Part shown: positions 9,514 through 17,516 of the stretch, one piece after another
How the letters are laid out: the number at the start of each line of letters is the position of its first letter
How positions within the stretch are numbered: position 1 is the first letter of the stretch
Assembly (NCBI RefSeq): GCF_035818615.1
Contig: NZ_JAYKZY010000002.1
Coordinates: 1,800,501-1,864,500, forward strand
Length of the DNA: 64,000 bases
Reading direction: 5' to 3'
From: Sphingobium sp. CR2-8
GTDB taxonomy: Bacteria > Pseudomonadota > Alphaproteobacteria > Sphingomonadales > Sphingomonadaceae
Position numbers and translations under genes: made by a program
Notes under the pieces: generated by a model
Seen by the model: the letters and a program-made list of their open reading frames with translations, nothing else
What the model was told of the DNA's origin: nothing
The model's database searches: none

Positions 9514-9590
<77 letters not shown>

Positions 9591-9761
9591 CTTCCCACAT
9601 CGCTGGACAAGCAGGCAGCCAAAGAGTGCGAAAATGCTCCATTTTGCCTATTTTCGACTTTTTGGCGCTCAGGTGCTTCGGGCTACCGGTGCGTTAACCA
9701 GACGCGAACGCTATTGGCATATTATGCGACACTTCCAAGATCGATGAAGGAAGTAGAAACG

Positions 9762-9926
9762 ATGCGTCGCTTCGCCCAAAATATATTACGTAGCAATAAG
9801 GGTGCCACCGCCATCGAATATGGTCTGATCGCCGCGCTGATCGCGGTGGCCGCCATCGGCGCGATGACGAGCCTGGGCACAAAATTGGGTCGCACGTTCA
9901 ACAACGTGTCGGGCAATCTGAAATAA
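9762..9926 (+). CDS. Flp/Fap-type pilin component
   Basis: A 54-residue Flp-family pilin: a short basic leader (MRRFAQNILRSNK) with the G|ATAIEYGLIAALIAVAA cleavage/helix motif characteristic of Tad pilins. After cleavage by a Tad prepilin peptidase it would polymerise into Flp fibres for attachment. ATG 9762 is preferred because AAGGAAG sits 8 bp upstream; ATG 9744 gives six extra residues. No other tad/cpa genes are nearby, so the pilin is an orphan here. The adjacent gspO peptidase belongs to the type II system and is convergent. Confidence 0.88.
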   Translation: MRRFAQNILRSNKGATAIEYGLIAALIAVAAIGAMTSLGTKLGRTFNNVSGNLK

Positions 9927-9949: not shown

Positions 9950-10690
9950 TCACATCACGCGCAGGACGACGAGCCAGGCCGGCAATGCGGCAAGCGCGAG
10001 GAAGGTGCCGAGCGGCACATGGGCGGTGCGCCGTCTTGCCCGACCACTGGCCAGCATCACCATCAATCCCGATAGCGATGCGATGAGCAGGATGAAGGGC
10101 AGCGCCTGCCAGCCGAACCATGCGCCCAGCGCGCCGAGCAGCTTCGCGTCGCCCAATCCCAGACCGTCACGCCCACGCAGAACGCGGTAGCCAAGGGCGA
10201 TCCCGACCAGCGCTGCGTAGCCGATCGCCGCGCCGATGATGCGATCGATGAGTATGACGTCGGTCGCCCACATGCCTGCGGTGAAGCCAATGAAGGCGAG
10301 CGGCAGGGTCAGGGCGTCCGGCAACCAGAAATGCCGCCAATCCAGTATCGCCAGCGTCAACAGCATCCAGCCCAACACGGCCCAGGCGACACCCCCAACA
10401 TCGGCCGCGCCACCCAGCGCCAGCGCGCCGATGATCGCGCACGCGGCCTCCACCCGGCCATGCAAGGGATCAATCCGGGCGCCGCAGGTCCGGCACCGTC
10501 CGCGTTGCGCCATTGCGCTGAACAGGGGAATAAGATCACGCGCGCCCAGCGTTCGGCCGCAGCCGTCACAGGCCGATCGTCCACGCATGATGCTGCGCCC
10601 GGCGGGCCAGCGGAGGATCAGCGTGGCGAGAAAACTGCCCGCGATCGCGCCGGCCAGCGCACCGATCAGGGCCGCAACCGGCTGGATCAC
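9950..10690 (-). CDS. gspO: Type II secretion prepilin peptidase / N-methyltransferase GspO
   Basis: A 246-residue integral membrane aspartyl protease that cleaves and N-methylates the pseudopilins GspG-K. The cytoplasmic zinc-binding tetracysteine is CDGCGRTL...CRTCGARIDP (near residues 43-80). The two catalytic Asp regions are ILDWRHFWLPDALTLP and GLGLGDAKLLGAL (GxGD protease motif). The GTG start on the complement of 10690 overlaps the gspN stop (GTGA), so translation is coupled. It is the last gene of the gsp operon. Confidence 0.93.
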   Translation of the reverse strand: MIQPVAALIGALAGAIAGSFLATLILRWPAGRSIMRGRSACDGCGRTLGARDLIPLFSAMAQRGRCRTCGARIDPLHGRVEAACAIIGALALGGAADVGGVAWAVLGWMLLTLAILDWRHFWLPDALTLPLAFIGFTAGMWATDVILIDRIIGAAIGYAALVGIALGYRVLRGRDGLGLGDAKLLGALGAWFGWQALPFILLIASLSGLMVMLASGRARRRTAHVPLGTFLALAALPAWLVVLRVM

Positions 10691-11409
10691 AATGTGCCTT
10701 CGGCCTTGAGCAACTGCACACCGTCCGAACCCGCAAAGCCCGCCTGCCCCAGCGTTGCGGCCAAGGTCGGATCGGCGGTTTCGACCCGCATCTCTGCCGT
10801 GTAGCGGCCCGATCGCCAGATGCGCAGGCTGATCTTTTCCATGCCGGACTGGCTCACCAGGGGCAGCAGCAGCGCGTCGCCATCGCAACTGACGACACCC
10901 GACAGGCCCTGGCTGAGGTTCAGGCCGGGAAACTGCCCCGCCATGCGCGCGCGGACGCGGCCTTCAGCATGGCCGCAGCGCTCGCCCGCATAATAGGCGC
11001 TCACATCCTCCAGCATCAGACTGCCGATCGGCAGCGGGGCGAAGGTCCGGCCAAGCGGCACCGCGCCGGTCACATCGTCCACGCCGATGCGCCCGAACCC
11101 GACGGTCAGCGCGCCGCTGATATCGTCGGCGAGGCCCTTGGTACGGGCGATGTCGAAACGGGCGCGGCCAACCAGCAGCGACAGGGGGGACAGGCCCGCG
11201 CGCACGCTGCCCATCGGCATCTCGCCCAACATCAACTGGTCGATCCGCCCGCTCCACACCGTCCCGCGCACATCCCGTGCGGCGATGCCCAACCGCTCAA
11301 GACCGGCCAGGCCCAGCGCCACCCGCATCGGCAGGAACAGCAGCATGCCAGCCAGAAGGGTCACGCCCAGGATGATCCGCATCCGCCGCGACAGGGACAG
11401 GCCCATCAT
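10687..11409 (-). CDS. gspN: Type II secretion protein GspN
   Basis: A 240-residue inner-membrane protein with one N-terminal transmembrane helix (about residues 11-30) and a periplasmic domain containing RDVRGTVWSGRIDQL and the late SCDGDALLLPLVS segment typical of GspN. GspN is an accessory, often dispensable component. The start overlaps the gspM stop by 4 bp (ATGA) at 11406-11409. Identification leans on operon position as well as sequence. Confidence 0.85.
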   Translation of the reverse strand: MMGLSLSRRMRIILGVTLLAGMLLFLPMRVALGLAGLERLGIAARDVRGTVWSGRIDQLMLGEMPMGSVRAGLSPLSLLVGRARFDIARTKGLADDISGALTVGFGRIGVDDVTGAVPLGRTFAPLPIGSLMLEDVSAYYAGERCGHAEGRVRARMAGQFPGLNLSQGLSGVVSCDGDALLLPLVSQSGMEKISLRIWRSGRYTAEMRVETADPTLAATLGQAGFAGSDGVQLLKAEGTL

Positions 11410-11894: not shown

Positions 11895-13012
11895 GACCGC
11901 ACCGTAATGTCCGCCAGCGTCCGCCCGCCCGGATCCTGCGAGGGCGTGGCCGTGATCGTGAAGCCCGCCGCCTGCAAGGCCAGCAGAACCAGATTGATGT
12001 CGTCCGCCTTGGCCGAAGCCAGGGTCGCGCGCACCATGCCGTCGGCATCGCGCGACAGGCTGGTCACCACCACGCCCGGCGCGTCCTGCATCGCGCTCAA
12101 AAGGCCCGCGACCGGCGCGGTGAAGGCGCGCGCGCCCGCGCCACGCGCTGCCAGCTTGCCCTCCATCTCGACCAGCGCCTGGGCCGGGTCGGTGGCGCCC
12201 AGCAGAACCTGTTGCGCCTGCGCCAGGCTTTCGCGATCCAGCCGACTCGCCTCCATATGCTGTTTGGCGATGCCGATCAGCGCGATCATCAGGCTGGCGA
12301 GCAGGATCAGGCCGCTCCATAGCGCGATACGCCCGACGGCGCGGCTGTCCACGGCCGCCCGCCGCACGCGCTTGGCGAAGTCGCCCTGCCGCATATCGAG
12401 CGGCGGCGCATCCAGCGCCGCGATCGCGCGCCCTTCGACCACACCGGCAGGCACATCCAGGATCGCCGCATCGCCGATCAACCCAGGCAGCGCCATGTCG
12501 GCGGTCAGCGTCAGATCCACACCGCGCAGCACGGTCTCGCCGCCGATCGCGCCGCGCGTGAAGCCTTCCTCCGGTTCCGGCAGCAGCAGGGGCGCAGGCA
12601 TGATGATATCGGGGTCCAGCCCGTGATGCTGCGCCTGAAGCAGCCAATGTTGCATGTCGGCCCGGGCCGCCACCGCGACGATGTGCGGCCGCGCGGGATC
12701 GTCCTGCGCGTCGGCGACCGCAAACAGGTGGTCCGCCGGTACAAGCCCCCCGGCCAGTGCCGCCAGACGTGCCGCCGCCCGCCCCTGCCGCACGGGCAGG
12801 TCGGGATGAGTGGTCCAGTAAAGCGTCACCAAGGCCGCGGGCGGGACCAGCATCACGCGCGCCTGCGGCGGCAATTCTGCGATGCCGCAGGCCGCAAGCC
12901 AGTTCGCGCCCACGCCCGACTGCACCAGCGCGCCGTCCACGACGCGCATCCAGCGCGGCTCGGCGTCCGCCGCCTCGGCCAGAAAGACGATCAGCGCGTC
13001 AAGACTGCTCAT
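11891..13012 (-). CDS. gspL: Type II secretion protein GspL
   Basis: A 373-residue bitopic protein: a cytoplasmic actin-like domain (residues about 1-225) that recruits the GspE ATPase, a transmembrane helix (IALWSGLILLASLMIALIGI, near 245) and a periplasmic ferredoxin-like domain that pairs with GspM. The start at 13012 (MSSLDALIVFLAEAADAEPR) overlaps the gspK stop in an ATGA junction. Confidence 0.9.
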   Translation of the reverse strand: MSSLDALIVFLAEAADAEPRWMRVVDGALVQSGVGANWLAACGIAELPPQARVMLVPPAALVTLYWTTHPDLPVRQGRAAARLAALAGGLVPADHLFAVADAQDDPARPHIVAVAARADMQHWLLQAQHHGLDPDIIMPAPLLLPEPEEGFTRGAIGGETVLRGVDLTLTADMALPGLIGDAAILDVPAGVVEGRAIAALDAPPLDMRQGDFAKRVRRAAVDSRAVGRIALWSGLILLASLMIALIGIAKQHMEASRLDRESLAQAQQVLLGATDPAQALVEMEGKLAARGAGARAFTAPVAGLLSAMQDAPGVVVTSLSRDADGMVRATLASAKADDINLVLLALQAAGFTITATPSQDPGGRTLADITVRS

Positions 13013-14016
13013 GCGCCCGCCCCCCAGTTGCGGCGCACCAGCGTGGCCGGGCTTTGCCGCGCGTCGATCAGCGCCCGCTCCACTACCTGCGTTCCCCCGA
13101 CATTCACCGACACGTCCACTCCGAAAAATCCCGTCGTCATCTTGACCTGCGCACTGACTTCCGCGTCCGGCGACAGGCCGACCAGCGACGGCGTCTGCCA
13201 GAACTGGTTCACGCTGCCGTAGCCGTCTGCTGGCCGCCGCGCCAGCAGTTGCCGCGCCTGCGCGACGGTCAATTGCCCCGGCAGCAGCATCGCAAACAGA
13301 GGCGCCTGCCCGGGGAGCAGCGTATTGATGTTGATCGGCGACAAATCCGTGACAGGCAGGGCGCAAATCCAGGGCCGCGCCAGATCATATATGGCGGGGC
13401 TGACGCCGCTGACCGCGCGCAATTCGCTGGCGTCCACCATCATGCGATTGGCGGCGCGATAAGGGCGTGCCATTTGGGCATAGGTTTCGTCCTCCGCCCC
13501 GCCCGGCTGCGGCACGCTGTCGGTATCGATCCAGTCGGCCAGGCTGGCGGCCGCGCCCTGCGCCTGCCCCGCATCGACGCCCAGCGCCTCCAGCAAAGCC
13601 TGAAATTGCAGCACGCCAATGGGGCGCAGCTTCAGGCTGGCGTCAGTCTCGCCGCTGACCACGCTGTTGAGGTTGAAGCAATTGCCCGCATCGGTCACGC
13701 GCGCCGTCGCCACGCCGCCCGGCAAGGGAATAGATTGCGGCGTACCCATCCATCCGCCCGCCAGCGTGATCTTTGCGGGGTTAGAGGCGGTGAGATCGGC
13801 GATGCGCAGCCGCGCCATCTCCGTCGCGGCGTCGGCATAGGCACGTCCCTGATCGACTGCGCCACCGTTGCCGGTCATCCGCGTCGCCAGCGCCACCCGC
13901 TCCAGCGCCGTCGCCGCCACCACCGCCATGACCGCGACCAGCAGCAATACGGTCAGCAGCGCCGCGCCGCGCTCGCTTCTATTTCTGGGGTCAGGCCTCT
14001 TGCGGGGATCAGACAC
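13009..14016 (-). CDS. gspK: Type II secretion minor pseudopilin GspK
   Basis: A 335-residue pseudopilin. The basic leader MSDPRKRPDPRNRSERG ends at the G|AALLTVLLLVAVMAVVAATALER cleavage and helix segment; GspK normally lacks the Glu5 found in other pseudopilins. The long globular domain includes the SAM-like helical insert (LADWIDTDSVPQPGGAEDE) that carries the calcium-binding acidic residues. GspK caps the pseudopilus tip with GspI and GspJ. The start codon is GTG at 14016, overlapping the gspJ stop by 8 bp. Confidence 0.92.
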   Translation of the reverse strand: MSDPRKRPDPRNRSERGAALLTVLLLVAVMAVVAATALERVALATRMTGNGGAVDQGRAYADAATEMARLRIADLTASNPAKITLAGGWMGTPQSIPLPGGVATARVTDAGNCFNLNSVVSGETDASLKLRPIGVLQFQALLEALGVDAGQAQGAAASLADWIDTDSVPQPGGAEDETYAQMARPYRAANRMMVDASELRAVSGVSPAIYDLARPWICALPVTDLSPININTLLPGQAPLFAMLLPGQLTVAQARQLLARRPADGYGSVNQFWQTPSLVGLSPDAEVSAQVKMTTGFFGVDVSVNVGGTQVVERALIDARQSPATLVRRNWGAGA

Positions 14017-14794
14017 CGGCCGCTCCTTGCGCCACGTCCAGCTTTTCCGGCGGACCGGGCGCGACCAGGAAACGCAGCATCACCGGCGGCTCGCCGGCGC
14101 GCGTTACCGTCATTTCGACCGCGCGCGGCAACAGGTCGGGCTGGGTCGGGGTCCAATCCTCCCGCCATTTGCCCTGTGCATCGCGGAACCGCAGCACCAC
14201 CGCCTCGACATGATCGAGCAAGGCGGCGGGATCGTCCCCGGCCGCGCCATCCAATTGCGCATAGGTGCGCCGCTCCAGCCGCCCCTGCCGCACCCAATAT
14301 TCCACCTTTTGCAGCGATGGCCGGGGCAGATCGCCCAGATTGTCCCATCCGCCGCGCACGAACTGCATCACCGGCTGGCTCTCACCCTCGCCATGCGCCC
14401 AGAAGGCAGGGGCCAACGTGCCCGCCTCGGTACGGGTGATGCGCGGCACCGCCTGCCCCAGGTCGCCTGCCAGCGCGCCGCCCGCTCTTTGGATCGCGGC
14501 CATATCATCCAGCCGCGCCTTGATCTGCGCCTGCGCCGACACGCTGTTGCCCAGCAGCAGCACGCCCGCGCTCGCCAGCATGGCGAAGATCATCAGCGCG
14601 ACGAGCAGTTCGATCAGCGTGAAGCCGTGTTCGGCGGAACGCGCGTGATACGTGAAGCCGTGTTCGGCGGAACGCGCTTGAGACGTGAAGCCCTGCTCTC
14701 CCCTCTCCCCGTTCGGTTCGAACCTGTCGAGCACAGGGGCACGCGCAATGGTTCTCGACAGGCTCGAACCGAACGGATTAAGTGACGAGGCCAT
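14009..14794 (-). CDS. gspJ: Type II secretion minor pseudopilin GspJ with an expanded, repeat-containing leader
   Basis: A 261-residue pseudopilin. From the coupled ATG at 14794 (TGATG junction with gspI) the leader is about 57 residues instead of the usual 6-15. It contains a translated inverted-repeat element (SRTIARAPVLDRFEPNGER) and then three GF motifs spaced 11 residues apart (EQGFTSQ, EHGFTYH, EHGFTLIELLVAL). Only the last is followed by the hydrophobic N-helix, so prepilin peptidase should cut there (G|FTLIE). A GTG inside the repeat element (VLDRFEPNG) could give a shorter leader. The mature part is a normal GspJ. It may be partly impaired in membrane insertion; that is inference. 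Confidence 0.88.
   Translation of the reverse strand: MASSLNPFGSSLSRTIARAPVLDRFEPNGERGEQGFTSQARSAEHGFTYHARSAEHGFTLIELLVALMIFAMLASAGVLLLGNSVSAQAQIKARLDDMAAIQRAGGALAGDLGQAVPRITRTEAGTLAPAFWAHGEGESQPVMQFVRGGWDNLGDLPRPSLQKVEYWVRQGRLERRTYAQLDGAAGDDPAALLDHVEAVVLRFRDAQGKWREDWTPTQPDLLPRAVEMTVTRAGEPPVMLRFLVAPGPPEKLDVAQGAAGV
14618..14692. repeat. 33-bp tandem repeat encoding the GspJ prepilin leader
   Basis: CGTGAAGCCGTGTTCGGCGG starts at 14618 and again at 14651, and a diverged third unit (CGTGAAGCCCTGCTC) starts at 14684, exactly 33 bp apart. On the coding strand each unit encodes RSAEHGFT plus three variable residues. The same 25-bp core occurs in the gspI and gspH leaders. Confidence 0.85.
14709..14776. 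repeat. Inverted-repeat element inside the gspJ 5' coding region
   Basis: The arms 14709-14731 and 14754-14776 are 23 bp with one mismatch (CCGTTCGGTTCGAAC type), separated by 22 bp. This is the REP-like family that reads TTCGACAGG...GAACGG in sphingomonad genomes. It is translated as part of the GspJ leader. Confidence 0.85.
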
Positions 14795-15222
14795 CACTCC
14801 ACCACCCGCACGAAGCTCAGGACCACAGGCGACGCGCCGGGCTGGCCGTCGACGGTCAGGTCCACCTGCAACAGCCGCTGGTCGTCCGTGGGCTTGACGG
14901 TGCGGCTCCAGTGCCAGCGCCGCCCGCCATTGTCCGCTTGCCCCTCTTCCTGGCCGACCGAAGGCGTCAGGGGATCGGTCTGCGTCTCCACCATCAGGTT
15001 GCGCGCGACGATCTGGCCCAGCGCCTTGCTGTCGAGGTCGGCGGCGGTTCGCAAGGTCACGCCCTGTAACCGCACCAGCGCCAATGCGGCGAGGCTGAAC
15101 ACGGCAAGCGCGACCAGCATTTCCAGCAACGTGAAGCCGTGTTCGGCGGAACGCTGAAAAGACGTAAAGCCGTGTTCGGCGGAACGCTTTGAAAGCATGA
15201 AGCCATGTTTGCGCCTATCCAC
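14794..15222 (-). CDS. gspI: Type II secretion minor pseudopilin GspI with duplicated leader
   Basis: A 142-residue pseudopilin. The leader contains three GF motifs 11 residues apart (KHGFMLSK, EHGFTSFQ, EHGFTLLEMLVALAVF); the last one is the functional cleavage site, G|FTLLEM, followed by the hydrophobic helix. Two starts are possible: GTG 15222, overlapping the gspH stop, or ATG 15198, which begins exactly at the second leader unit (MLSKRSAEHG). The mature domain is an ordinary GspI, which nucleates the pseudopilus tip with GspJ and GspK. The stop overlaps the gspJ ATG. Confidence 0.88.
   Translation of the reverse strand: MDRRKHGFMLSKRSAEHGFTSFQRSAEHGFTLLEMLVALAVFSLAALALVRLQGVTLRTAADLDSKALGQIVARNLMVETQTDPLTPSVGQEEGQADNGGRRWHWSRTVKPTDDQRLLQVDLTVDGQPGASPVVLSFVRVVE
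15130..15214. repeat. 33-bp tandem repeat encoding the GspI prepilin leader
   Basis: The 25-bp core CGTGAAGCCGTGTTCGGCGG... begins at 15130, recurs with one change at 15163, and a weaker third unit (CATGAAGCCATG) begins at 15196, all at 33-bp spacing. Confidence 0.85.
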
Positions 15223-15669
15223 CGACCATGACCTTTCCCGCCATGTCGACCGTCACGGACACGCGCTCGCCTTCGCGCGCCAGCGTCACGGTCAGCGGAT
15301 CGGTCGGCAGGCCCGTGCCGTCGAAGCCGATCTGCTGCCGCCCATCCTTGCCCACCAGCGCGCGAGTGCCGCTTTTCCAGTTGGCGGTCACGAAGGGCTT
15401 GTCCTGCAGCGTGACCCATTGCCCGCCCTCGCGGCGCTGAAAGCCATAGCCGGAGGCCGACACCCACAGGCCCATTGGGCGCGCAGTCACGACCGCTTCG
15501 TCGCGCGCGGCGGCAACGCGCGCGGCAAAGCGGTCGGCATCATCGATCACGCGCCCGCGCGGATCAGGGATCGCCATGACGACGGCAGCGGAAATGAAAC
15601 CGATGATCGTCAGCACGACCATCAGTTCGATCAGCGTGAAGCCCTGTTGGGCGGAACGCGCAAAGGCAT
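15215..15669 (-). CDS. gspH: Type II secretion minor pseudopilin GspH, start region frameshifted
   Basis: The mature pseudopilin is intact in one frame: QQG|FTLIELMVVLTIIGFIS, then a normal GspH domain ending KVMVGG at 15215. Reading upstream in that frame there is no ATG, GTG or TTG before a TAG at 15725-15727. However, ATG at 15669 lies one base out of frame. Adding a single base in its first codons (the CC or TTT after ATG) would give MPFARSAQQG|FTLIEL, a textbook leader. I therefore give 15669 as the ancestral start. Either this is a real frameshift with loss of the leader or a one-base assembly error. The first in-frame ATG (15622) lies inside the N-helix and would lack the cleavage site. 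Confidence 0.75.
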
Positions 15670-15700
15670 TGAAGCCACGTTCGCACGTCCGCGAGCGCGC

Positions 15701-15755
15701 CCGGCGCAGGCCGGGGCCCAGTGTCTATCGAACTGCGGACCCCGGCCTGCGCCGG
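15701..15755. repeat. GC-rich inverted repeat between gspG and gspH
   Basis: CCGGCGCAGGCCGGGGCCC (15701-15719) pairs with GGACCCCGGCCTGCGCCGG (15737-15755) with one mismatch, around a 17-nt loop. It lies 9 bp after the gspG stop and abuts the damaged gspH start. It is a second repeat family, distinct from the TTCGACAGG type. Confidence 0.85.
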
Positions 15756-15763
15756 AGAACCAG

Positions 15764-16225
15764 TCACAACTCGCTGGAATAGATATCCGCATTTTCTTGA
15801 TCTCCGCCCGGCTGGCCATCCGCGCCCAGCGAACTGATGTCGAACGCGCCCTTGCGGCCCGGCACGGTGTAGACATAGGCGCGGCCCCACGGATCGTCGG
15901 GCAGCTTCTTGATATAGCCGCCGCGGCGATAGCGCTGCGGCTGGGCGAGGGATGCCGGAGGATTGAGCAGCGCCTGCAACCCGTCCGATCCGGCCGGATA
16001 GGTCAGATTGTCGAGCCGATACTGCTCCAGCGCCTGTTCGATGGTGGCGATGTCGGCCTTCGCCTTTTCGACGCGCGCCGTGTCGGTTGCAGGAATGACA
16101 TTGATCGCCACGATCGTCGCCAACAAGCCGATGATGACGATGACGACCATCAGTTCGACCAGGGTGAAGCCCTCTTCTCCCGACCGCTGGTCACCGTTCG
16201 CCCTGAGCCTGTCGAAGGGCTTCAT
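15764..16225 (-). CDS. gspG: Type II secretion major pseudopilin GspG
   Basis: A 153-residue major pseudopilin that forms the shaft of the pseudopilus. The cleavage motif is GEEG|FTLVELMVVIVIIGLLATI, with Glu5 present. The C-terminal half has the GspG signature (DPWGRAYVYTVPGRKGAFDISSLGADGQPGG) with the calcium-loop aspartates. The first residues MKPFDRLRANGD are translated from the repeat element at 16194-16271, so this start codon is itself supplied by a repeat. Confidence 0.94.
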   Translation of the reverse strand: MKPFDRLRANGDQRSGEEGFTLVELMVVIVIIGLLATIVAINVIPATDTARVEKAKADIATIEQALEQYRLDNLTYPAGSDGLQALLNPPASLAQPQRYRRGGYIKKLPDDPWGRAYVYTVPGRKGAFDISSLGADGQPGGDQENADIYSSEL

Positions 16226-16271
16226 TGTCTTTGGCGAAAGAACAGGGCTTCGACAAGCTCAGCCCGAACGG
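16194..16271. repeat. Inverted-repeat element spanning the gspG start codon
   Basis: The arms 16194-16220 (CCGTTCGCCCTGAGCCTGTC...) and 16245-16271 (GGGCTTCGACAAGCTCAGCC...) are imperfect complements of the TTCGACAGG REP-like family. The gspG start codon (16223-16225) falls just inside the loop side of the left arm. Confidence 0.85.
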
Positions 16272-16298
16272 ATTTCAACATGCGCATATTCAACTCCT

Positions 16299-17516
16299 TC
16301 AAGCCCCGGTGAGGCTTTGCAGCTGCAGGATCGGCAGCAGGATGGACAGGATGATGACGGCGACGATGCCGCCCATCGCGATGATGATGACCGGCTCCAG
16401 CATGGCGAGCGCGGTGGAGGTGAAGCTGTCGAACTCCCGCTCCAGATAGTCGGCCGCGCGCTCCAGCATGGTGTCGAGCCGCCCGGCGCTTTCACCGCTC
16501 GCCGCCAGATAGACCAGAAGCGGCGGGAACACGCCGGCCCGGCGGAGCGCCGCCGACAGGCTGCCGCCGCCCCGGATCGCTTCCACGATCTCGTCCGACG
16601 CCTTGCGCAGCACCCGGTTGTGGACGGTGTTCGCCGTCAGCGTCAGCCCCTCCATCAGCGGCAGGCGGCTGGCAACCATGGTGGACAACGTCCGCGCCAT
16701 CCGCGCGGCATGAAGGTCGCGGATCAACCGGCCCAGCAGCGGCAGGCCCAGCAGCATCGCATCGAACCGATAGCGAAAGCCGTCATTTTGCAACGCCCGC
16801 CAGAAGCCGACGCCCCCCAGCACCATCAGGATCAGCAACAGCCACCAATAGGCGGCCAGGAAAGCGGACACGGCCATCACGATCCGCGTCAGCAGTGGCA
16901 ATTCCTGCCCCACCGTGTCGAACTGCTCGACCACCTTGGGCACGACGAAGATCATCAGCGCCGCGACCACGAACACGGCGAAGGTCGCCAGCACCGAGGG
17001 ATAAGCGATCGCGGTCAGCACCTTGGAGCGCATCAGCGCCTGCCGCTCCATCAGATCGGACAATCGTTCCATGATCGTCGGCAGGCTGCCGGAGCTTTCA
17101 CCGGCGGAAATCATCGCGCGATAGAGCGGTGGGAAGCTTTTGGGTTCCGCGCCCAGCGCGTCGGCCAGACGCCGCCCTTCCATGACCCCGCCATGCACCT
17201 TGCCCACGATCGCACGGACATGATCCTGCTCGCTCTGGCGGCCGATGGTGCGCAACGATTCCTCCAGCGGGCTGACCTGGGTCAGCGTCGCCAACTGGCG
17301 GGTGAAGAGCGTCAGTTCCTTGGGGCTGAGGCGCGGCGTGCGCAGCGACAGGCCCGCTCGCTGGCGCGCCGTTTCCACCGCGCCCGGCTCGATCCGCACG
17401 ATGAACATCTTGCGCGCATCCAGCTTGGCGCGGGCATCCTCGATCGTTGCGGCCTTGATACTGCCGCTGCGCTCCCGGCCCGTAGGATCGATGACGCTAT
17501 AGTCGAAATCAGCCAT
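16299..17516 (-). CDS. gspF: Type II secretion inner-membrane platform protein GspF
   Basis: A 405-residue polytopic protein with two copies of the T2SS-F domain (about residues 70-190 and 270-395), each with the G(E)S motif (SAGESSGSLPTIMERLSDLM; AASGESAGRLDTMLERAADYLE), and three transmembrane segments. GspF couples the GspE ATPase to pseudopilus assembly. ATG 17516 overlaps the gspE stop; the next gene downstream, gspG, is separated by a 73-bp gap carrying a repeat element. Confidence 0.95.
   Translation of the reverse strand: MADFDYSVIDPTGRERSGSIKAATIEDARAKLDARKMFIVRIEPGAVETARQRAGLSLRTPRLSPKELTLFTRQLATLTQVSPLEESLRTIGRQSEQDHVRAIVGKVHGGVMEGRRLADALGAEPKSFPPLYRAMISAGESSGSLPTIMERLSDLMERQALMRSKVLTAIAYPSVLATFAVFVVAALMIFVVPKVVEQFDTVGQELPLLTRIVMAVSAFLAAYWWLLLILMVLGGVGFWRALQNDGFRYRFDAMLLGLPLLGRLIRDLHAARMARTLSTMVASRLPLMEGLTLTANTVHNRVLRKASDEIVEAIRGGGSLSAALRRAGVFPPLLVYLAASGESAGRLDTMLERAADYLEREFDSFTSTALAMLEPVIIIAMGGIVAVIILSILLPILQLQSLTGA

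Follow-up and report, generated by a model that had tools for sequence, protein, structure and literature searches.

Short in-frame DNA cassettes at the prepilin peptidase site of type II secretion pseudopilin genes in Sphingobium and other genera of its family

The window, by which we mean the whole 64,000-nucleotide stretch of Sphingobium sp. CR2-8 DNA that was analyzed, contains a type II secretion operon on its minus strand in which gspD, E, F, G, H, I, J, and K are recognized by NCBIfam profiles, with gspE (624.7 bits) slightly below its cut-off of 630.25. The NCBIfam equivalog cut-offs are passed by gspJ (125 bits versus 64.85) and gspI (82.8 bits versus 44.35) and barely by gspH (81.2 bits versus 80), and in each of these three frames a GF is followed by a helix with glutamate at +5, as expected of the minor pseudopilins of type II secretion systems. 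A 312-residue frame at 9950–10888 of the minus strand gave no NCBIfam match and has CxxC pairs and a GLGD motif, which we take to be those of prepilin peptidases, so that the processing enzyme is likely to be encoded near the end of the same gene run; this putative peptidase frame adjoins what is presumably a Flp-like pilin frame on the plus strand (9558–9926).

The window contains five copies of a 25-bp core, three without mismatch (14618, 14651, and 15130), one with one mismatch (15163), and one with two (15635), and 100 shuffles of the window gave no match to it. Tandem Repeats Finder reports a 33-bp period at 14618–14692 and 15132–15209, and a 21-base pattern searched at up to three mismatches through the whole host genome gave seven matches, namely the five copies in the window and two scattered ones with three mismatches. 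The window gspI and gspJ each contain one native GF and two 33-bp cassettes, gspH contains one native GF and one cassette, and gspG contains no cassette (Table 1). A sequence-only reading of this locus had described three GF motifs in each of the gspJ and gspI leaders as copies of one 33-bp unit, which holds for two per gene (14618/14651 and 15130/15163). The third, in gspJ at 14684 and in gspI at 15196, agrees with the unit in the GF codons and a few neighboring bases alone, and from its sequence it is most plausibly the native cleavage site rather than a unit copy. The same reading was right to place the core in the gspH leader as well, where the two mismatches form a complementary pair in a hairpin stem (G..C changed to C..G), and it overlooked a second GF 11 residues upstream in gspH.

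Table 1. Pseudopilin genes, cassettes, native cleavage sites, and palindromes in the window
Feature	Position	Strand	Remarks
gspJ reading frame	14009..14797	-	leader of about 57 residues; start overlaps gspI stop
Two 33-bp cassettes, gspJ leader (TSQARSAEHGF, TYHARSAEHGF)	14621..14686	-	between native GF and mature TLIEL; cores 14621-14641 and 14654-14674
Native gspJ cleavage-site codons (GF of GEQGF)	14687..14692	-	probably the native site, now buried in leader
Dispersed palindrome in gspJ leader	14709..14776	-	26-nt arms, 92% complementary; 184 genome matches to a related 22-nt pattern at up to 2 mismatches, one at 14755
gspI reading frame	14794..15222	-	GTG start overlapping gspH end
Two 33-bp cassettes, gspI leader (MLSKRSAEHGF, TSFQRSAEHGF)	15133..15198	-	cores 15133-15153 and 15166-15186
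Native gspI cleavage-site codons (MDRRKHG/F)	15199..15204	-	probably the native site; unit-free L146 has VDKREQG/F, then mature TLLEM
gspH open frame	15215..15724	-	leader off usual frame compared with relatives; without ATG, GTG, or TTG start
One 33-bp cassette, gspH leader (NAFARSAQQGF, C..G stem variant)	15638..15670	-	core 15638-15658
Native gspH cleavage-site codons (CERG/F)	15671..15676	-	probably the native site; in L181 CERGF is joined directly to TLIEL
Dispersed palindrome in gspH leader	15701..15755	-	19-nt arms, 95% complementary; 159 genome matches to a related 20-nt pattern at up to 2 mismatches, one at 15737
Palindrome of the same dispersed kind, gspG leader	16194..16274	-	second arm matched at 16250; arm pairing judged by eye

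The best-matching named loci for the window operon belong mainly to Sphingobium, and the gsp operon was compared in 88 of 94 genomes sampled from the genus; the other six comprise three with no gspJ match (G004, G064, and G077), two with weak matches (G061 and G068), and one (G018, locus L206) that was read separately. A unit was defined as ACG or a similar codon, nine variable bases, and a 21-base core ending in GGCTTC, together 33 bp, and was counted at up to four mismatches in the 21 core bases (148, 77, 40, 26, and 14 units having zero, one, two, three, and four mismatches, respectively). The cassette core is CGTTCCGCC(G/C)AAMA(C/G)GGCTTC, and the encoded peptides are RSAEHGF, RSAQQGF, and RSAENGF. 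The 88 operons contain 318 such units, all on the coding strand and none on the minus strand, with 305 of them in frame (90 before gspG, 85 before gspH, 48 before gspI, and 82 before gspJ), seven out of frame before gspI, and six unassigned to a gene. At least one unit is present in 81 of the 88 genomes and at least two in one gene in 50, with a maximum of 13 per operon, and the leaders without a unit number 36 of 88 for gspG, 42 of 87 for gspH, 59 of 87 for gspI, and 50 of 87 for gspJ. The survey did not recognize gspH of L171, gspI of L187, or gspJ of L197, and for this last reason five L197 units upstream of the expected gspJ stand outside the 305. Successive units lie 33 bp apart in 142 of 143 gaps, the single exception hinting at a decayed unit, and 161 of the 162 arrays include the unit at the functional peptidase site. 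The upstream units are followed by glutamate at +5 in 17 of 144 cases, and the extra GF sites look inert, one of the possibilities raised in the sequence-only reading; glutamate is found at +5 of all 349 functional sites, which is no independent test since the motif used to find the relatives requires it. The count of units per leader, which an alignment of the operon in relatives was expected to reveal, varies from 0 to 7 per gene across the 88 operons, and relatives whose genes never share the core, the case that would have spoken against a shared unit, did not occur among the genus operons.

Several operons depart from the common arrangement. The seven out-of-frame units are found in L124, L135, L140, and L143, where they lie 122–188 nt before the gspI site and are perhaps relics severed by a palindromic insertion. 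A single one-mismatch unit at L182:3163 lies shortly downstream of gspJ and may belong to the leader of gspK. The gene order is G-I-(H)-J instead of G-H-I-J in 11 of the 88 operons (L158, L162–L165, L167, L169, and L171–L174, with H unrecognized in L171). In genome G231, two contigs (L244 and L245) have 100% identity over 1740 bp and differ in unit numbers in gspG and gspJ, probably because the arrays broke the assembly, or else through a mixed population, and the array numbers of this genome are unreliable.

The leaders that harbor the cassettes are of very uneven length, the distance from the upstream stop to the mature start ranging from 10 to 292 nt in the genus operons, with one of 502 nt. 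Frame is kept across this distance in 72 of 77 G-H, 76 of 76 H-I, and 74 of 76 I-J junctions, and less well in the group with G-I-H-J order (8 of 11, 10 of 10, and, for H-J, 8 of 11). Judged by this pattern, the leaders look translated and nearly free in length apart from frame, a freedom that would explain why dispersed palindromes gather there too: inverted repeats with 11-nt arms occur in 59 of 134 G-H, H-I, and I-J leaders of at least 60 nt, compared with 6 after shuffling, and no such excess was seen in the G-I-H-J group (2 of 23 leaders versus 1 of 23 shuffled). A search of window positions 13000–17000 against Rfam at E ≤ 1 gave six matches far below the gathering scores, on or around the palindromes and none on the cassettes, so no known RNA was recognized. 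The window gspH is itself unusual in that the stretch from its last in-frame stop to the mature start (15638–15724) contains no ATG, GTG, or TTG, which makes it the only start-less leader among 87 of gspH and, with gspJ of L149, one of two among all 349. The spacing between gspG and gspH departs from the usual frame, and beside the frame break a G run within the palindrome looks shorter than in L080 (Sphingobium psychrophilum); the break is either a real frameshift or an assembly error.

Within the unit cores the third codon positions hardly vary, and the codons used there are elsewhere uncommon. CGT accounts for 0.86–0.96 of the arginine codons in units and for 0.12 in 11 reading frames of the window, TCC for 0.92–1.0 versus 0.20, and GCC for 0.95–1.0 versus 0.31, and the wobble fixation extends to the upstream units and to other genera. 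The core can fold as GCCG-AACA-CGGC or, in a common variant, as GCCC-AACA-GGGC, the loop-closing pair being G-C in 203, C-G in 85, G-T in 10, and unpaired in 20 of the 318 units. Among 108 distinct cores the mutual information of this pair (positions 9 and 14), 0.34, is the largest of all 210 pairs; the next pair has 0.164, and shuffled columns reach at most 0.204. Both natural variants give the same hairpin, with modest fold z-scores of −1.3 to −2.8, and the two mismatched combinations fold less well; the other inner stem pairs are nearly invariant and the outer three are not kept by compensation, so that the evidence for a hairpin is suggestive. The 9-nt spacers behave differently from the cores, with 212 distinct spacers in the 305 units and with adjacent units differing by 38.7% in spacers and 7.8% in cores. 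Between the 25 closest genome pairs, which are not independent of one another, spacers differ by 33.9%, cores by 7.3%, mature genes by 4.8%, and four-fold synonymous sites by 13.3%. The spacers outpace neutral sites, a sign that whole units are often replaced or inserted, and the contrast between spacers and cores means that core conservation may reflect either selection on the core or recombination limited to matching cores. Homogenization within genomes was considered as its cause and rejected, as core identity between different genes is 0.880 in the same genome and 0.879 in different genomes, and as genes of the same genome agree in stem type no more often than permutation predicts (862 of 1000 shuffles reached at least the observed agreement).

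These properties of the core could be explained if it were a functional nucleic-acid element, either an RNA hairpin or a DNA dyad, maintained in pseudopilin mRNA by selection because, for example, it tunes the translation, stability, or stoichiometry of G, H, I, and J, with the peptide and the cleavage site as side effects. Such an element would account for the fixed wobble bases, the covarying loop-closing pair, the hairpin common to both variants, and the hint of decay in only one of the 143 internal gaps, but it fits poorly with a presence so patchy that most gspI leaders have no unit, with the uncompensated outer pairs and modest z-scores, and with a covariation that is mostly of two types, for which a few founder events could suffice. 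We regard a selected element of this kind as unlikely, although it is the most probable of the alternatives.

The relation of the cassettes to the native cleavage site can be read from the sequence above the arrays and from relatives with fewer units. Of the 162 arrays, 71 have a GF exactly 11 residues above their 5'-most unit, and all other tested offsets (3–21) total two. The residues before this GF are ER in 17 arrays, EA in 6, EN and EQ in 5 each, EE, ED, and EH in 4 each, QQ and KH in 2 each, and others in the remainder, and in 187 unit-free leaders the residues before the GF are ER in 36, EA in 24, EQ in 19, and EE in 12. By this resemblance the sites at −11 appear mostly native and older than the units, with few (EH, QQ, and KH) resembling the unit itself; their GF codons are variable, GGCTTC in 48 of 71 and other codons in 23, whereas those of the units hardly vary. 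Differences in unit number were followed in 113 pairs with at least 75% flank identity, which overlap and do not all include an empty member. In gspI, L189 and L118 agree at 35 of 36 positions leading up to the native GF codons, after which L118 has a clean extra 33 bp ahead of the mature part; a clean insert is likewise seen on comparing gspJ of L143 with that of L120, though the native site there is GGTTTT, and gspI of L179 and L195 differs by 66 bp. In the window, gspI reads MDRRKHGF, MLSKRSAEHGF, TSFQRSAEHGF, and TLLEM in succession, compared with VDKREQGF and TLLEM in L146, and gspH reads CERGF, NAFARSAQQGF, and TLIEL, compared with CERGF and TLIEL in L181, where the 36 upstream bases are 75% equal and whose unit-free gspH leader is the same as that of L080. 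It follows from the empty-site pairs and from the comparison of the window with L146 and L181 that the native site has been overtaken and not duplicated. The leaders listed for Xanthomonas and similar outgroup loci contain no units, and from such unit-free outgroups and the patchy distribution we infer that the unit-bearing state is derived and arose by insertion rather than by deletion.

The overtaking of the native site bears on the view taken in the sequence-only reading, that the leader unit was copied and amplified in place, each gene duplicating the end of its own native leader by local slippage. The part of that view concerning a unit shared by adjacent pseudopilin genes and growing in tandem is borne out: 33-bp tandem arrays with identical spacers exist, such as the four tandem TFAR units of L206, spacer identity within an array is 0.589, and the identical spacers in 32 of 230 same-gene pairs indicate tandem duplication within the array. 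The native leader itself was not duplicated, since the 5'-most GF has different, native-like surroundings and the RSAEHGF cassettes come after it. With the site above the array differing in sequence and codons, the extra sequence in empty-site pairs not being a copy of the flank, and the same core recurring in four genes and 13 genera, the empty-site pairs refute slippage as a sufficient account, and we consider it very improbable. Copying between the genes, also proposed then, is real and confined to a minority of cases, with 10 of 471 same-genome pairs from different genes sharing a 9-nt spacer against a permutation mean of 0.97 (0 of 500 permutations were as high); the clearest example is L194, with 63 nt common to gspH and gspJ. 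The spread of units is partly accounted for by their duplication in tandem and by occasional copying from one gsp gene to another.

The cassettes are nearly confined to this operon. A stricter pattern applied to whole genomes matched in 78 of the 94 genus genomes, with 243 of 249 units falling in the gsp operon and six not located (two each in G052 and G068, one each in G080 and G081). In a sample of the family, 29 of 397 genomes matched, including 9 of 11 from the genus, and outside the genus the matches comprised 20 of 386 genomes and 12 of 95 other genera, so the core search in other genomes found cassettes well beyond the host. In the non-genus loci, one from each of the 20 genomes, all 50 arrays are followed by TLVE or TLIE, and a GF lies at −11 in 15 of 48 arrays and at another offset in one. 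At the level of the class, 4 of 385 sampled genomes matched including the host, the other three giving single one-mismatch matches with no pilin start within about 140 translated bases. On plasmids, a 57-residue query found two gspG genes, aligned from query residue 22 or 23, that is, from the last unit position and the mature start. At about 2527–2577 of locus L210, a gspJ-like start is preceded by two units with a spacing of 30 bp, the sole such spacing among the loci listed. The "three genes" of the sequence-only reading are too few, as four genes and 13 of 96 sampled genera of the family are involved, and the finding has a wider reach, and is of greater interest, than was stated there. No such cassettes appear in the titles and abstract openings of the literature matches listed, in a search whose coverage leaves out most subscription papers, and RSAEHGF as text gave no match.

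A hairpin beside a fixed, cut-like sequence, found in sense orientation only and regenerating its target with each insertion, is what a single-strand transposon-like element of the REP or IS200 kind would produce, with a Y1 (HUH) transposase inserting 3' of GGCTTC. However, Y1_Tnp (PF01797) is present in only 23 of the 94 genus genomes and absent from 60 of the 78 that bear units, the mean unit number is 2.09 with it and 2.83 without it, and few units lie outside the gsp leaders although a six-base target is expected to be common genome-wide. Transposition by Y1 or RAYT enzymes is disfavored by this failure of the transposases to track with the units, and we give it little credence. That the cassettes are an assembly artefact, as long arrays that break assemblies, the unequal G231 contigs, and the off-frame window gspH might suggest, is refuted for the family as a whole by the recurrence of similar short arrays across separate assemblies, 81 of 88 in the genus, and across 20 genomes from other genera, and its probability is negligible.

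The explanation that we consider probable, if far from certain, is that 33-bp cassettes insert between the native GF codons and the mature helix codons of gspG, H, I, and J and are hidden by the processing of the leader. It draws directly on the 33n-bp differences from empty sites, the lock on frame and strand, the arrays that reach the peptidase site, the tandem growth and partial copying between genes, the conservation of the core at the nucleotide level, the covarying hairpin pair, and the near-confinement to the gsp operon. An insertion before the mature codons (ACG CTG ...) would supply a new G/F site and leave the mature helix unchanged, so that the prepilin peptidase would cut 11 residues further on and the insert would be removed together with the leader and become nearly invisible to selection. 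Prepilin peptidases are established to act in a manner that predicts the removal, by one cut, of all that lies upstream of F(TLxEL), and on this basis the peptidase most likely hides the inserts and leaves the finished protein unchanged. The cassettes probably spread between gsp loci by template switching or gene conversion, for which short homology could be provided by GG-TT-ACG at the left junction and, at the right one, by the conserved codons of the mature N-terminus, perhaps helped by pausing at the core hairpin; the arrays would then grow and shrink by 33-bp slippage, and a dedicated transposase would be unnecessary. Some observations sit less easily with this account. The rates of core and spacer change imply either very frequent replacement of units or selection on the core, and plain hiding calls for no such selection. 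For most units, the genome that carries them offers no donor with the same spacer, so that the source usually goes unseen; the left homology is sometimes weak, given the native sites that are not GGCTTC; and another left junction or decay must be assumed for the 91 of 162 arrays with no GF at −11. The cassette may even be self-propagating, a new kind of DNA unit specialized to the prepilin peptidase site that regenerates its own target and a working cleavage site, its product being erased each time by the host peptidase as an intron or intein is by splicing, with the pseudopilin leaders as a safe harbor for it and for other small repeats, but this more ambitious proposal is possible rather than probable.

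If the inserts are indeed cut away with the leader, signal-peptide processing would be a third route, beside RNA and protein splicing, by which small DNA inserts can be hidden in the genes of a secretion machine. The empty-site pairs and the variants of the hairpin offer a direct way to test how the cassettes spread. Annotation of these pseudopilins will put start and cleavage sites in the wrong place if any GF but the last is chosen, and the arrays could serve as strain markers.

Among known systems, the Rickettsia palindromic elements (RPEs) are small in-frame repeats in alphaproteobacterial protein-coding genes that are kept as coding sequence (Ogata 2000, cited in PMC10969869). The cassettes are likewise in frame inside coding sequence, but RPEs are about 150 bp long and occur in unrelated genes, whereas the cassettes are 33 bp, tandem, and located in nearly one operon and one site rather than in many unrelated genes, with a product placed for predicted removal by a peptidase. 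REP sequences and CGTC-tagged palindromes are short hairpin repeats with GTAG or CGTC tags (PMC3733652). The cassettes also form a palindromic hairpin, and dispersed palindromes share the same leaders, but REPs are scattered and of high copy number, whereas the operons that were read have 1–13 cassettes per unit-bearing genome in one orientation and the host genome has five near-copies. The cassette core has neither tag, as it begins with CGTT (on the other strand, with the following codon, CGTG), and the association with a Y1 (RAYT) transposase that characterizes REPs was not found. Intragenic minisatellites (VNTRs) are in-frame tandem units whose number varies between species. The cassettes too are tandem and vary in copy number between relatives, and they differ in that the first cassette does not copy the flanking sequence and in that one and the same unit recurs across four genes and 13 genera. 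Inteins and introns offer an analogy, as the product of the insert is removed and the mature protein is unchanged, which is also predicted for the cassettes; these have no self-splicing, however, and would be removed by the host prepilin peptidase only because the insert lies on the leader side. Their GF site followed by a hydrophobic helix with glutamate at +5 is that of class III (prepilin) signal peptides, the usual leaders of which are short, about 5–30 residues, whereas cassettes and palindromes here extend the leaders to the lengths given above. On these comparisons, the cassettes are filed as a variant of in-frame coding repeats.
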